The notes beneath the pieces were generated by a model. That model was given only the letters and a program-made list of their open reading frames with translations. It made no database searches and was not told the DNA's origin. From Tubiluchus corallicola (Eukaryota > Priapulida > Priapulimorpha > Priapulimorphida > Tubiluchidae): a stretch of 20,477 nucleotides of DNA. The stretch's first letter is position 1. Each line of letters begins with the position of its first letter. This document shows positions 7,111 to 12,025 of the stretch, one piece after another. Both the position numbers and the translations under genes were made by a program. The stretch lies in the NCBI GenBank assembly GCA_030141605.1, contig JAQGDQ010001790.1, positions 5,001 to 25,477 on the forward strand. The letters are read 5' to 3'.

Positions 7111-7480
7111 GCTATACCAGCAGCAGTTGTGAGCAGCAACGACAAGCCAGCAACGCGATAAAATTTTAACAAAAAAGTAAATAAGTAGATCTTACAGGGT
7201 TTTACCGGTTTATTGTCATAGTTGTTTTACAAGAAGATTAAATTACACATTAATTTATATTACACAGATTTGGCTGGCCTATTTTAAATAAGTCCTACAT
7301 AACAAATTACAATGTATTTTTTTACGTACTTACAATGTGTAAAATAACACATGCACAAATTTGACTGACATCAATAAACTATGAAAATGTGTTTAATTGC
7401 TATTAATGTGTGCAATAGTTAATAGTTTTGATTGTTTAACTAAGCTTTCTTTCAGTTTCTGAGCTATGAGTTATCTCGCT
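7111..7480. other. AT-rich region downstream of PRDM13
   Basis: No coding signal. It lies 3' of the PRDM13 stop on that gene's strand and may be its 3' UTR or intergenic DNA. An AATAAA on the minus strand at 7209-7214 is a possible distal poly(A) signal. Confidence 0.5.
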
Positions 7481-7920
7481 TTGGACGGTTAGGTATCGTG
7501 GTTGAATTTGCGAGTGACTTATTAAGAACAGGTCTCTGACTTGGTTGCGAGGTTACTTATTCTGTCGCTAGATGTCAGCACCGACTTGCCTTGGACGGTT
7601 AGGTATTGAGGTTGAACTTGCGAGTGATTTATTAAGAACACGTCTCTGACTCGGTTGCGAGGTTACTTATTCTGTCGCTAGATGTCAGCACCGACTCGCC
7701 TTGGACGGTTAGGTATCGAGGTTGTATTTGCGAGTGATTTATTAAGAACACGTCTCTGACTTGGTTGTGAGGTTACTTATTCCGCCGCTAGATGTCAGCA
7801 CCGACTCGCCTTGGACGGTTAGGTATCGAGGTCAAATTTGCGAGTGATTTATTAAGAACACGTCTCTGACTTGGTTGTGAGGTTACTTATTCTGTCGCTA
7901 GATGTCAGCACCGACTCGTC
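7481..7920. repeat. four-copy 110-bp minisatellite containing the PRDM13 stop codon
   Basis: TTGGACGGTT recurs at 7481, 7591, 7701 and 7811, an exact 110-bp period, with only a few substitutions between copies. The gene-proximal copy (7811-7920) includes the last 22 codons and the TAA of PRDM13. The other three lie in what would be its 3' UTR and repeat the same coding remnant with small changes, for example SNLTTKSETCS and SNLATESETCS, then stop. On the gene strand copies 2 to 4 contain AATAAA just after the stop; the most distal copy has AATAAG. Confidence 0.96.
7848..7853 (-). promoter_or_regulatory. poly(A) signal overlapping the PRDM13 stop codon
   Basis: On the gene strand the end of the coding region reads TCT TAA TAA ATC, so AATAAA overlaps the stop. 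The same hexamer recurs at 7738-7743 and 7628-7633 because it is inside the 110-bp unit. Cleavage 10-30 nt downstream of this first copy would leave almost no 3' UTR, so a later copy or the one at 7209-7214 may be used instead. Confidence 0.45.
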
Positions 7921-8951
7921 TTGTTCTATCACAGTGTTATTCTCTGCCTCCATGTCACTTTCACTAACATCAACATCGTCGATGTCGTCATCTTCCTTGC
8001 TTGTTAAACATTTTGCTTCTTGAGGATGTCTAGACTTGACGTGCCTTTCCAGATCTCTGCGTCTGACCAGAACTTTACCACAAAATTCACATCTGTAAGG
8101 CGTGTCGCCTTCGGCGTGCAACCGGATGTGTTTGTTGAGGTTGCTAGGGTCACCAAACGGACGGTGACACACCTTGCACTTCAACGGCTTATAGCCAGTG
8201 TGCGTCCGCAGATGGATTTTCAATCCATATTTTCTGGAGTAAATTTTTCCGCAATAGATGCACAAGTGTCCTTTTCGACACTTGCCATTCTCGCTAGGTG
8301 GCAGTTCGGTCTCCGCTTGTAGAAGAAGTCTTTCCTCTGCTGCCACACTAGGAATTTCACACAAACTTGCATCATCTCGTAGAGCGGCAGCCTGCATTTT
8401 CGTGAGCACAGATCTGTGGTCCGGCATTGATAATCCGTATTGCGGCAAATGCGATGACGTCACATCCGGCAGTGGAAGCGTCGATCGGAAGCCATTTTGT
8501 TTTGGCAGCGGACAGAGACCGGGATTGTACAAAATTTGACGCATTGAGTTAACGTTTTTCATTCGTGCATCACAGAAACTTGACTGGAAGGGGAAGAATC
8601 TGATGGGGCCACACCCAACTGTATAGGGCCAGAAAGGTGTTGAGGGCACAGGAAAGGGAAGAATATTGTGTCGAAGTACCGGATTTTCAGATGCTTGTAA
8701 AAATGTCGGATTACTCGTGACGTCATTAAACTGTCTCATGGGTCGAAGTTGAAACCCAAAATGTGGTTCCGCAGGCAAGTCACGCAACTGTCTCTTTGGT
8801 GCTGAAAACGCAGAGTCGTTCGTGTTGTCGCCGCTTGGTGGCAGCAACTTCGACGAAGTGCATGGTCGACACTCGAAAGCAATATGAGACTTGAGAGGGT
8901 TGGGATGAGTGAACACCTTACAGCATTTTATGCACACGTATCTCTGATTAC
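7852..8951 (-). CDS. PRDM13: PRDM13 orthologue, zinc-finger exon (3' terminal coding exon)
   Basis: PRDM13 is a PR/SET-family nuclear zinc-finger regulator; in vertebrates and flies it controls neuronal subtype choice. This exon gives 365 residues plus TAA. ZF1 is C2HC type (CIKCCKVF...HPNPLKSHIAFEC, about 8868-8933), the variant typical of PRDM13. A serine/proline-rich linker of about 200 residues follows. Then come three clustered C2H2 fingers (about 8026-8262) containing CIYCGK, RKYGLKIHLRTHTGYKPLKC, FGDPSNLNKHIRLH and RCEFCGKVLVRRRDLERHVK, nearly identical to vertebrate PRDM13. The tail is acidic (EDDDIDDVDVSESD). The exon begins after TTATTACAG at 8952. Its first two bases complete a glycine codon from the upstream exon (phase 1). 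The reading frame stays open upstream to 9015, but only as intron. The last 22 codons lie in the 110-bp minisatellite, so the extreme C-terminus may be lineage-specific. Confidence 0.95.
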
Positions 8952-9016
8952 CTGTAATAACAACAACAGTTAAGTTTGTTTTCTTTATTAGACAACAAAT
9001 AAACAATAACTTCAAT

Positions 9017-9442
<426 letters not shown>

Positions 9443-9790
9443 ATCAATTATAATGCTATTTTAATATAGCTCTATGTAAATTAAACATACACTGTGGTCG
9501 TTTCTTCTCCTCTTTTCCTTCTTCCTCTCCCTAATCTTACTATTTTTTCCATTCCATCATGTCTACTAACCCTAACCATTCTTTCATTCACTCATTTGTA
9601 CCACCTTAACAAGCCAAGCTTTCAAGGTGTCATACAGCAACTCTTTTATTTGGTTAATTTGACTTCATCAACGTTTTTTTTACCTATACTGTTTCTTTTT
9701 GTTTCAATAATATTGTATGTTGATGTATTGTATGTATGTTGATGTATTGTATATGTATTGTTGGAGTGAAATAAATTGATTGATTGATCT
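9443..9790 (+). mobile_element. probable retroelement 3' tail
   Basis: A T/C-rich stretch is followed by repeated GTATGTTGATGTATT-type units (near 9714-9760), then GAAATAAATTGATTGATTGATC. A poly(A)-signal-like AATAAA run into short (ATTG)n is the usual look of a LINE or SINE 3' end. No coding part is attached, so the family is unknown. Confidence 0.4.
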
Positions 9791-10166
9791 TTTTTTATGA
9801 AGCTTCCTGTTACACAAAGCTGGTTTTCTTGTTCTGGTTTCAATTTTAGAAAATTAGTATTTCCTATTTAATAAAGAATAGCAAGAATAATAAACACTCA
9901 TAAGAAAGAAGACGCGTTTTATATATATATATATAAACGAAATTCAAAGGAGAAAAACATAGTAGTTATTATTATTAGTATCTGTTTATCCACATTTTCT
10001 GCAGGGACACTGCAATGTGGCGCCATCTCGCGGCAGTTCGTTAAACATTTTCGTTGCAACATTTCAGAAAATTTAAATTCTGGTTCCTAGACTCGTTGTA
10101 TAGTGAGGAAGGAATTTAAAATTACCCATACAATTGAAATAACATAACTCTCACCCTAATCCAATG
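9791..10166. other. unique intronic sequence
   Basis: No coding sequence. It contains a short (TA)n at about 9921-9934, ATT triplets near 9968 and the CTCF-like site at 10019-10033. Confidence 0.5.
10019..10033 (-). promoter_or_regulatory. CTCF-like binding motif
   Basis: The minus strand reads CCGCGAGATGGCGCC. By eye it agrees with 14 of 15 positions of the metazoan CTCF core CCRSYAGRKGGCRSY, the mismatch being G at position 5. It sits in an AT-rich intron where such a GC-rich block stands out. An alternative reading of the ATGGCGCC core is a YY1-like site. Prediction only. Confidence 0.4.
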
Positions 10167-10207
10167 TCCCAACCCTAGACTTAACACTAACCCAACCCTA
10201 ACCCTAA
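10167..10207. repeat. degenerate telomere-like CCCTAA units
   Basis: AACCCTAGACTTAACACTAACCC-type sequence ends in two clean CCCTAA units directly abutting the 99-bp minisatellite. It is too short and degenerate to be a telomere. It could be an interstitial telomere scar from double-strand-break repair, or chance. Confidence 0.35.
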
Positions 10208-10729
10208 TTGTATGTTTACAGGACTAAGAAATGTACATACATTAAAACACTTGTACACCTAACACATGTACTAACTGTTTACTGTTATCTATAAGACAAT
10301 CATACCTTGTATGTTAACAGGACTAAGAAATGTACATACATTAAAACACTTGTACACCTATCACATGTACTAGCTGCTTACTGTTATCTATAAGATAATC
10401 ATACCTTGTATGTTTACAGGACTAAGAAATGTACATACATTAAAACACTTGTACACCTATCACATGTACTAACTGTTTACTGTTATCTATAAGACAATCA
10501 TACCTTGTATGTTTACAGGACTAAGAAATGTACATACATTAAAACACTTGTACACCTAACACATGTACTAACTGTTTACTGTTATCTATAAGACAATCAT
10601 ACCTTGTATGTTAACAGGACTAAGAAATGTACATACATTAAAACACTTGTACACCTATCACATGTACTAGCTGTTTACTGTTATCTATAAGACAATCATA
10701 CCTTGTATGTTCACAGGACTAAGAAATGT
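10208..10729. repeat. 99-bp minisatellite containing the PR-exon donor splice site
   Basis: CCTTG of the unit recurs at 10305, 10404, 10503, 10602 and 10701, an exact 99-bp period, with a degraded copy junction at 10208. There are about 5.3 copies differing by few substitutions. The last partial copy (10703-10729) is PRDM13 coding sequence, and 10701 is the first base of the real intron. The array therefore duplicates the final codons of the exon, the donor and the start of the intron. Confidence 0.95.
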
Positions 10730-10960
10730 TATTCCCAATTTCACAGCCACTTCTTCGCTGTACCAGACTAGAAGCTCCTCTTTTCTCTGGATGGTTTTTA
10801 TTGCTTTGAGCAACACGCCTCCTTTCCCGTCCTCTGCCAACTCGACGTTCTGTTCATGACGATCTCTTGCTGTCCGCAATTCTCTGAGCCAACCGGAAGC
10901 GGAAATCGTGGTTGAAGTGGTTCCATTTGAGGCTTCAAGGAGACCATTAACACATTTCAC
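10702..10960 (-). CDS. PRDM13: PRDM13 orthologue, PR/SET-domain exon (internal, partial gene)
   Basis: This internal exon encodes 86 residues plus one base: the C-terminal half of a PR domain, a divergent SET fold that in this family mostly serves protein interaction or weak methyl transfer. Key features are WLRELRTARD, EQNVELAEDG, GGVLLKAIKTI and EELLVWYSEEVAVKLGI. These align in order with vertebrate PRDM13 around its RAARNSQEQ, GGQIF and GEELTVWYS segments. The acceptor is TTTCTTTACAG|GTGAAATG at 10961/10960. The first codon is GTG in phase 0, and it is an internal valine rather than a start. The donor AAG|GTATGA ends it in phase 1. Joined to the zinc-finger exon it yields a 452-residue C-terminal product. 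The N-terminal PR portion must lie on an upstream exon that I could not identify between 10961 and 20477. Confidence 0.9.
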
Positions 10961-11118: not shown

Positions 11119-11373
11119 TTCCGACCCCTCAAACTATGAAATTTCAACTAAAATATAGTTATCTTTTATCACAAATCATATAAAAATTGAAGTTTCATAG
11201 AAAAAGTTGTTTGAATGCGTAGCGACGCAGGCAGTTTATGTAAGAGGCTGTTTGCCTCCGCCTCTCTTGTTGCGGAGAAACTTTTTAACAAGAGCAACAC
11301 GGGGGCAGGTGGACTATCCAGGGAGGGTTAATCTACAGGCTTATCCCGCCTAGTCATTCAATCGCCACGTCCT
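10961..11373. other. upstream intron sequence with (TA)n
   Basis: It begins with the PRDM13 acceptor polypyrimidine. It contains a (TA)n run at about 11092-11118 and a GC-richer patch near 11240-11345 that introduces the following minisatellite. No exon recognised. Confidence 0.55.
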
Positions 11374-12025
11374 GTGCGTTAAGGTAAACACTTCTATTAC
11401 ACCTGCTACTACGTGAACAGGCGCGCATGATTGAACTATGTGCGTTAAGGTAAACACGTCTATTACACCTGCTAGCTGTCAGCGTTACCACACTGGTAGC
11501 CTGAGAGCCATACTACGTGAACAGAAACGCATGATTGAACTATGTGCGTTAAGGTAAACACGTCTATTACACCTGCTAGCTGTCAGCGTTGCCATACTGG
11601 TAGCCTGAGAGCGATACTACGTGAACAGGCGCGCATGATTGAACTATGTGCGTTAAGGTAAACACGTCTATTACACCTGCTAACTGTCAGCGTTGCCACA
11701 CTGGTAGCCTGACTGTTAGAGAGCGATACTACGTGAACAGGCGCGCATGACTGAACTATGTGCGTTAAGGTAAACACTTCTATTACACCTGCTAACTGTC
11801 AGCGTTGCCACACTGGTAGTCTGAAAGCCATACTACGTGAACAGGCGCGCATGATTGAACTATGTGCGTTAAGGTAAACACTTCTATTACACCTGCTACT
11901 ACGTGAACAGGCGCGCATGATTGAACTATGTGCGTTAAGGTAAACACTTCTATTACACCTGCTTACCACACTGGTAGCCTGAGAGCGATACTACGTGAAC
12001 AGGCGCGCATGATTGAACTATGTGC
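11374..12025. repeat. variable-length 66/104-bp minisatellite
   Basis: GTGCGTTAAGG-type unit starts at 11374, 11440, 11544, 11648, 11760, 11864 and 11930, with a broken unit at 12022. Spacings are 66, 104, 104, 112, 104, 66 and 92. Short units lack the 38-bp AGCTGTCAGCGTTGCCACAC-containing part; the 112 unit has an extra 8 bp (CTGTTAGA). Each unit carries CACCTG (11400, 11466, 11570, 11674, 11786, 11890 and 11956), TACGTGA and GGCGCGC. It lies 0.4-1.1 kb upstream of the PR-domain exon. Confidence 0.95.

Follow-up and report, generated by a model that had tools for sequence, protein, structure and literature searches.

Minisatellites that carry multiple splice donors are a known kind of element, described in two human genes, IFI6 and ABCA7, which are the precedents among the matches listed from the open-licence literature, where others may exist. 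In IFI6 (6-16, G1P3), two downstream repeat units are used as donors, giving three mRNAs (Turri et al., 1995, as related in the excerpted text of PMC4526556). In intron 18 of ABCA7, the first bases of a 25-bp array are the donor of exon 18. According to excerpts of that report (PMC5954066), splicing at the donor of the next unit retains one unit and introduces a premature stop, at a level of 2 ± 1% that is independent of array length, while skipping of the following exon (exon 19) does vary with array length; premature-stop transcripts increase under translation block. Effects of repeat length on splicing have also been described for MIR137 (PMC6692358, in excerpt) and, among listed search matches, for TERT intron 6 (PMC3948165, PMC11830802), and in neither case was the repeat seen to contain the donor itself. 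A related idea is the tandem genomic duplication model of intron gain, in which a duplicated AG/GT segment (here and below, the slash marks a junction) creates a new intron inside an exon (PMC4974935 and PMC3629103, in excerpt).

We analysed a 20477-nt stretch of DNA from the priapulid Tubiluchus corallicola (hereafter, the window), in which a 99-bp minisatellite spans an exon-intron junction on the minus strand. The exon concerned (10702..10960, minus strand) is 259 nt long, has a phase-1 donor, and encodes a PR domain by translation and by its similarity to Pfam PRDM2_PR (3.2e-10) and to a PRDM12 chain in PDB (1.4e-05). When 10960-10702 is spliced to 8951-7852, an open frame results for a PR plus C2H2 protein that matches Pfam PRDM2_PR and zf-C2H2. 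The intron removed by this join (8952..10701, minus strand, 1750 nt) holds the array, and the last coding exon (7852..8951, minus strand) encodes the C2H2 zinc fingers and runs to the stop codon. A protein search gave 1012 matches at E<=0.001 among 4985 candidates, and the best 120 were taken as the orthologue set. The top matches were from Saccoglossus, snails, a nemertean, and an octopus, and many of the best 120, including snail, nemertean, insect, and fish proteins, are named PRDM13. With a PR domain followed by C2H2 fingers and its nearest matches among proteins named PRDM13, the gene is evidently a PRDM13 orthologue, as the earlier note had proposed, by an assignment from domains and listed matches. 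In a midpoint-rooted tree of 39 of the 120 proteins and the window protein, the latter grouped with arthropod sequences (96/91) on a long branch. The remaining 9.5 kb yielded no upstream coding exon, although a short, divergent one might have escaped detection: in tblastn, 18 of the 120 orthologues gave matches wholly upstream of the PR exon only at E 0.22-0.72, and a profile built from 13 sequences, run against 184 open stretches of the minus strand, reached a best E of 0.75. Within the intron, a (CT)n tract of about 425 nt in gene sense (9018-9442) lies approximately 65 nt upstream of the 8951 acceptor; very long pyrimidine tracts such as this are of the kind bound by PTB-like proteins.

The array itself (10208..10729, minus strand) was detected by Tandem Repeats Finder (TRF) with a period of 99, 5.3 copies, 96% matches, and a score of 981. 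In gene sense, it begins within the coding exon at 10729 and comprises five complete rows of 99 nt, with first bases at 10729, 10630, 10531, 10432, and 10333, and a further 27 nt. Each full row consists of the last 28 nt of the PR-domain exon (ACATTTCTTAGTCCTGTNAACATACAAG) and the first 71 nt of the intron, and 5 of the 99 columns vary among the five rows. The terminal partial copy (10208..10234, minus strand) repeats the exon end and terminates with CATACAA/TTAGGG; degenerate TTAGGG-like (telomere-type) repeats at 10150-10207 adjoin this distal end. Chance similarity was dismissed for 522 bp at 96%, and a dispersed repeat was likewise set aside, since nothing else in the window matches the unit. 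The rows that start at 10630 and 10333 agree over all 99 bp (100% identity), and the row variants follow the order A, B, C, D, B, (C or D), in which the partial row contributes one informative column. This order fits that expected from duplication of a three-unit block. The two identical copies might also be read as an assembly artefact, by which the copy number was inflated or collapsed; the copies nevertheless show a non-trivial pattern of differences across five columns, and we see only a slim chance of such an artefact. The copy number, which is based on one assembled sequence, may be wrong, but the existence of the array is unlikely to be.

The earlier note had described a minisatellite built from the PRDM13 exon-intron junction, and this description is borne out both by the array rows and by the exon-end peptide of the orthologues. 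The 28-nt exon end common to every full copy (10702..10729, minus strand) codes for TFLSPVNIQ and supplies base 1 of the Gly codon that follows, and orthologues carry GIPFLTPxNIQG or similar at this position. By a text pattern applied to the 120 orthologues, the distance between the WY motif and the first zinc-finger cysteine equals that of the window protein in 44 (40 fit the strict motif and 4 more match the spacing), is longer in 75 (by two residues in 73 and by one in 2), and is unmatched in the remaining one (P0107). The longer-spacing orthologues shown (P0016, P0021, P0081, and P0084) are fish proteins without the NIxG letters. Because orthologues have an equivalent of the exon-end peptide at the corresponding position, the exon end appears to predate the array, and the array would have been derived from the exon-intron junction, not the reverse. 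Had the array instead come first and the exon taken its donor from it, the exon end would be expected to resemble the other copies closely, and it does differ from them at one third-codon position only; conversion from the array may, moreover, have homogenised the exon copy. Such a capture is nonetheless very improbable in our judgement, as orthologues from molluscs, nemerteans, hemichordates, and arthropods have an equivalent peptide with matching position and spacing. The one variable column in the exon part of the array, the third base of the Val codon, is weak evidence of anything, because 4 of the 27 exon-part sites are four-fold degenerate. The in-frame join to 8951 and the matching orthologue spacing also uphold the exon end at 10702/10701 that had been proposed, and they make a true exon end elsewhere unlikely.

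The authentic donor (GT at 10700..10701, minus strand; first intron base 10701) has the sequence AAG/GTATGA, and the same 9-mer recurs on the minus strand in four decoys, with GT at 10601..10602, 10502..10503, 10403..10404, and 10304..10305 and first intron bases at 10602, 10503, 10404, and 10305, respectively. The count of four intact decoys given previously is thereby confirmed as four exact 9-mers, the sixth, partial copy being without the GT. The array includes the authentic donor, and its further units keep a usable-looking one. Scored with a donor matrix not fitted to this species, the true donor and all four decoys reach 8.00, and a GT outside the array at 10154 reaches 8.38, so the decoys are not the only strong donors of the intron. 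Concealment of the decoys by RNA structure was dropped: in a local pairing model, the unpaired value of the 9-mer was 0.025 for the true donor and 0.008-0.017 for the decoys, which is low for all five, and the difference is too small to rest on. Each unit also contains an acceptor-like TTATAG. The first of these and decoy donor 1 delimit a pseudoexon-like interval of 82 nt (10603..10684, minus strand), and equivalent intervals end at the other three decoys; TTATAG scores 5.92, compared with 8.61 for the true acceptor at 8951, on an acceptor matrix that was likewise not fitted to this species.

Choice among near-equal donors has been studied in human genes. In classical work, the intron-proximal donor was preferred, which holds for intron definition, whereas under exon definition the preferred donor is the one closest to the acceptor of the same exon (PMC9225289, in excerpt). 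The same source reports that, among all human events in which donors with near-equal scores compete, 60% use the upstream one, that strict exon-definition events and minigenes with two identical donors also favour the upstream donor, and that exon skipping was the outcome for constructs with longer exons in one condition (PMC9225289). Since the downstream intron of PRDM13 is 1750 nt long and the 9.5 kb searched gave no upstream exon, so that the upstream intron is probably long as well, exon definition is expected here. The first donor should be favoured, if modestly, and this rule alone would not make it exclusive.

Taken as a whole, we consider it probable that this is a junction minisatellite that is tolerated downstream of the true donor, with decoys that are mostly bypassed and a low leak that is decayed. 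An ordinary minisatellite would have formed through successive tandem duplications of 99 bp around the PR-exon donor, and later growth probably proceeded by a three-unit block. All extra copies lie downstream of the true donor and are intronic, leaving the coding exon unchanged, which may be why they are tolerated. The exon would be recognised across itself, by the acceptor at 10960 with the nearest donor at 10701, and the four identical downstream donors would mostly be passed over. By analogy with ABCA7, a few percent of transcripts may leak, retaining 99 to 396 nt, and these would meet a TAG at 10687-10685 and undergo nonsense-mediated decay (NMD). The array is thus most likely a harmless or slightly leaky repeat. 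That the expansion is neutral and tolerated because the true donor comes first had been one suggestion of the earlier note, and the published preference for the upstream donor, although modest and human, lends it support (PMC9225289, in excerpt). Several points weigh against this explanation. The decoys score equal to the true donor, and local strength therefore gives the true site no protection; the upstream preference is modest (60%) and reverses under intron definition (PMC9225289, human, in excerpt); the precedents are human, and an upstream exon may have been missed; and in IFI6 the downstream repeat donors are used (PMC4526556, in excerpt).

The consequences of decoy use can be read from the frame. 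An in-frame TAG (10685..10687, minus strand), the AG of which is also that of the pseudo-acceptor (first base 10684), is met on any decoy use or intron retention. For every decoy, the translation reads VNIQGMIVL followed by this stop, in agreement with the QGMIVL and stop at 10685 noted before. With a decoy donor, the exon would measure 358, 457, 556, or 655 nt, leaving 82, 181, 280, or 379 nt between the stop and the junction. Under the usual NMD rule, a transcript is degraded when its stop lies more than about 50-55 nt upstream of a junction. The distances of 82-379 nt predict mRNA decay, not a PR-only protein, from the decoy mRNAs, which present an NMD-type context. Furthermore, all decoys lie downstream of the TAG, which forms nt 15-17 of the authentic intron, and the array is thus not needed to reach this stop. 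Plain intron retention would give the same protein end without the array, and polyadenylation at an intronic ATTAAA or AATAAA signal (9872, 9650, 9465, and 8989) would also meet the TAG without it. The mouse Prdm13 protein needs its C-terminal zinc fingers, and survival does not depend on its PR domain (PMC5576485, in excerpt), and for this reason a PR-only product would probably be inert or a loss-of-function form. The earlier note had envisaged that the array yields a PR-only isoform through its decoy donors. While the QGMIVL-stop frame is real, the stop belongs to the authentic intron, the decoys are unneeded for it, their mRNAs are of NMD type, and the product would look like loss of function by comparison with the mouse gene; we find this proposal barely credible.

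Comparison with the known systems bears on whether the decoys could matter in another way. As in ABCA7, a tandem array takes in the authentic donor, and use of the second-unit donor would retain one unit and reach a premature stop. However, the 25-bp unit of ABCA7 starts at the GT, carries no exon sequence, and is not a multiple of three, whereas the PRDM13 unit includes exon sequence and has a length divisible by three; the smallest length observed in ABCA7 is twelve units; and the ABCA7 array was measured in RNA and in people, that of PRDM13 being described from sequence (PMC5954066, in excerpt). IFI6 is similar in that minisatellite repeats provide splice donors downstream of the first, and it differs in that two of them are in actual use with three mRNAs, the PRDM13 copies being donors by sequence. 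One could imagine that the PRDM13 decoys are used to a meaningful extent and that the fraction of PRDM13 mRNA that is full-length depends on the length of the array, the mechanism being decay of the decoy transcripts rather than production of a PR-only protein. The four exact donor copies, the stop met from every decoy, and the junction distances of 82-379 nt are all compatible with this; the two identical copies suggest a recent block duplication, and repeat length is linked to splicing elsewhere (ABCA7 exon 19 skipping, MIR137, and TERT intron 6). Nevertheless, the decoy-donor isoform of ABCA7 is constant across array lengths (PMC5954066, in excerpt), and exon definition predicts first-donor use, if modestly, and we regard length-dependent output as unlikely. 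The copy-number-tunable splice switch put forward originally likewise finds no support, given a stop that precedes the decoys, an NMD context, and the copy-number-independent retention (2 ± 1%) in ABCA7.

The tandem duplication model of intron gain also invites comparison, because AG/GT is present in each full PRDM13 unit and splicing between equivalent points would restore the original sequence. In that model a new intron is made in an exon, whereas the PRDM13 copies sit in an existing intron. In addition, the AG of CATACAAG/GT has a low acceptor score here, 1.00 or -1.26 against 8.61 for the true acceptor on the acceptor matrix used above, and by that matrix its acceptor context in the units is weak.

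We next consider how exceptional the location of the array is. Merged arrays with a unit of at least 40 bp number seven and cover 2516 of the 20477 bases (12.3% of the window), and random placement would put at least one of them across the four known coding boundaries with P=0.37 and at least two with P=0.069. Because seven minisatellites cover 12% of the window, an array on a coding boundary is unremarkable here. The window is repeat-rich overall, with many long simple repeats (CTTAT, TGA, CAA, AG, TAT, TCAC, GTAG, and ATT) and minisatellites between 1299 and 19760, and a 104-bp minisatellite lies upstream of the PR exon (11407-11963; partial copies at 11373-11408 and 11979-12025). A second minisatellite detected by TRF (7475..7923, minus strand, 110 bp x 4.1) straddles the PRDM13 stop codon, and two boundary-straddling arrays in one gene are somewhat more than random placement would give (P=0.069). 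The first copy of this second array covers the final 72 nt of the frame, up to and including the stop codon, together with an AATAAA that overlaps that codon; the AATAAA is kept in three of the four copies, resulting in tandem copies of a stop and poly(A) signal. In both the 99-bp and the 110-bp array, the functional copy is the first in transcription order. We infer that this is the order that selection would leave, because an upstream expansion would enter the protein. It might further be proposed that the 99-bp array is self-cancelling, through unit-to-unit splicing in which AG/GT regenerates the junction, or dosage-setting, through a leak to decay by which copy number sets full-length PRDM13 mRNA, and that the 3'-end array acts likewise on 3' end choice. 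We hold this to be quite improbable.

Five identical, evenly spaced donors behind one exon constitute a natural test, in an invertebrate, of choice among equal sites. The precedent of ABCA7 indicates that such arrays can be nearly silent at the donor itself (PMC5954066, in excerpt). If donor choice or copy number did matter at this locus, the length of a repeat would be tied to the dose of a nervous-system transcription factor.
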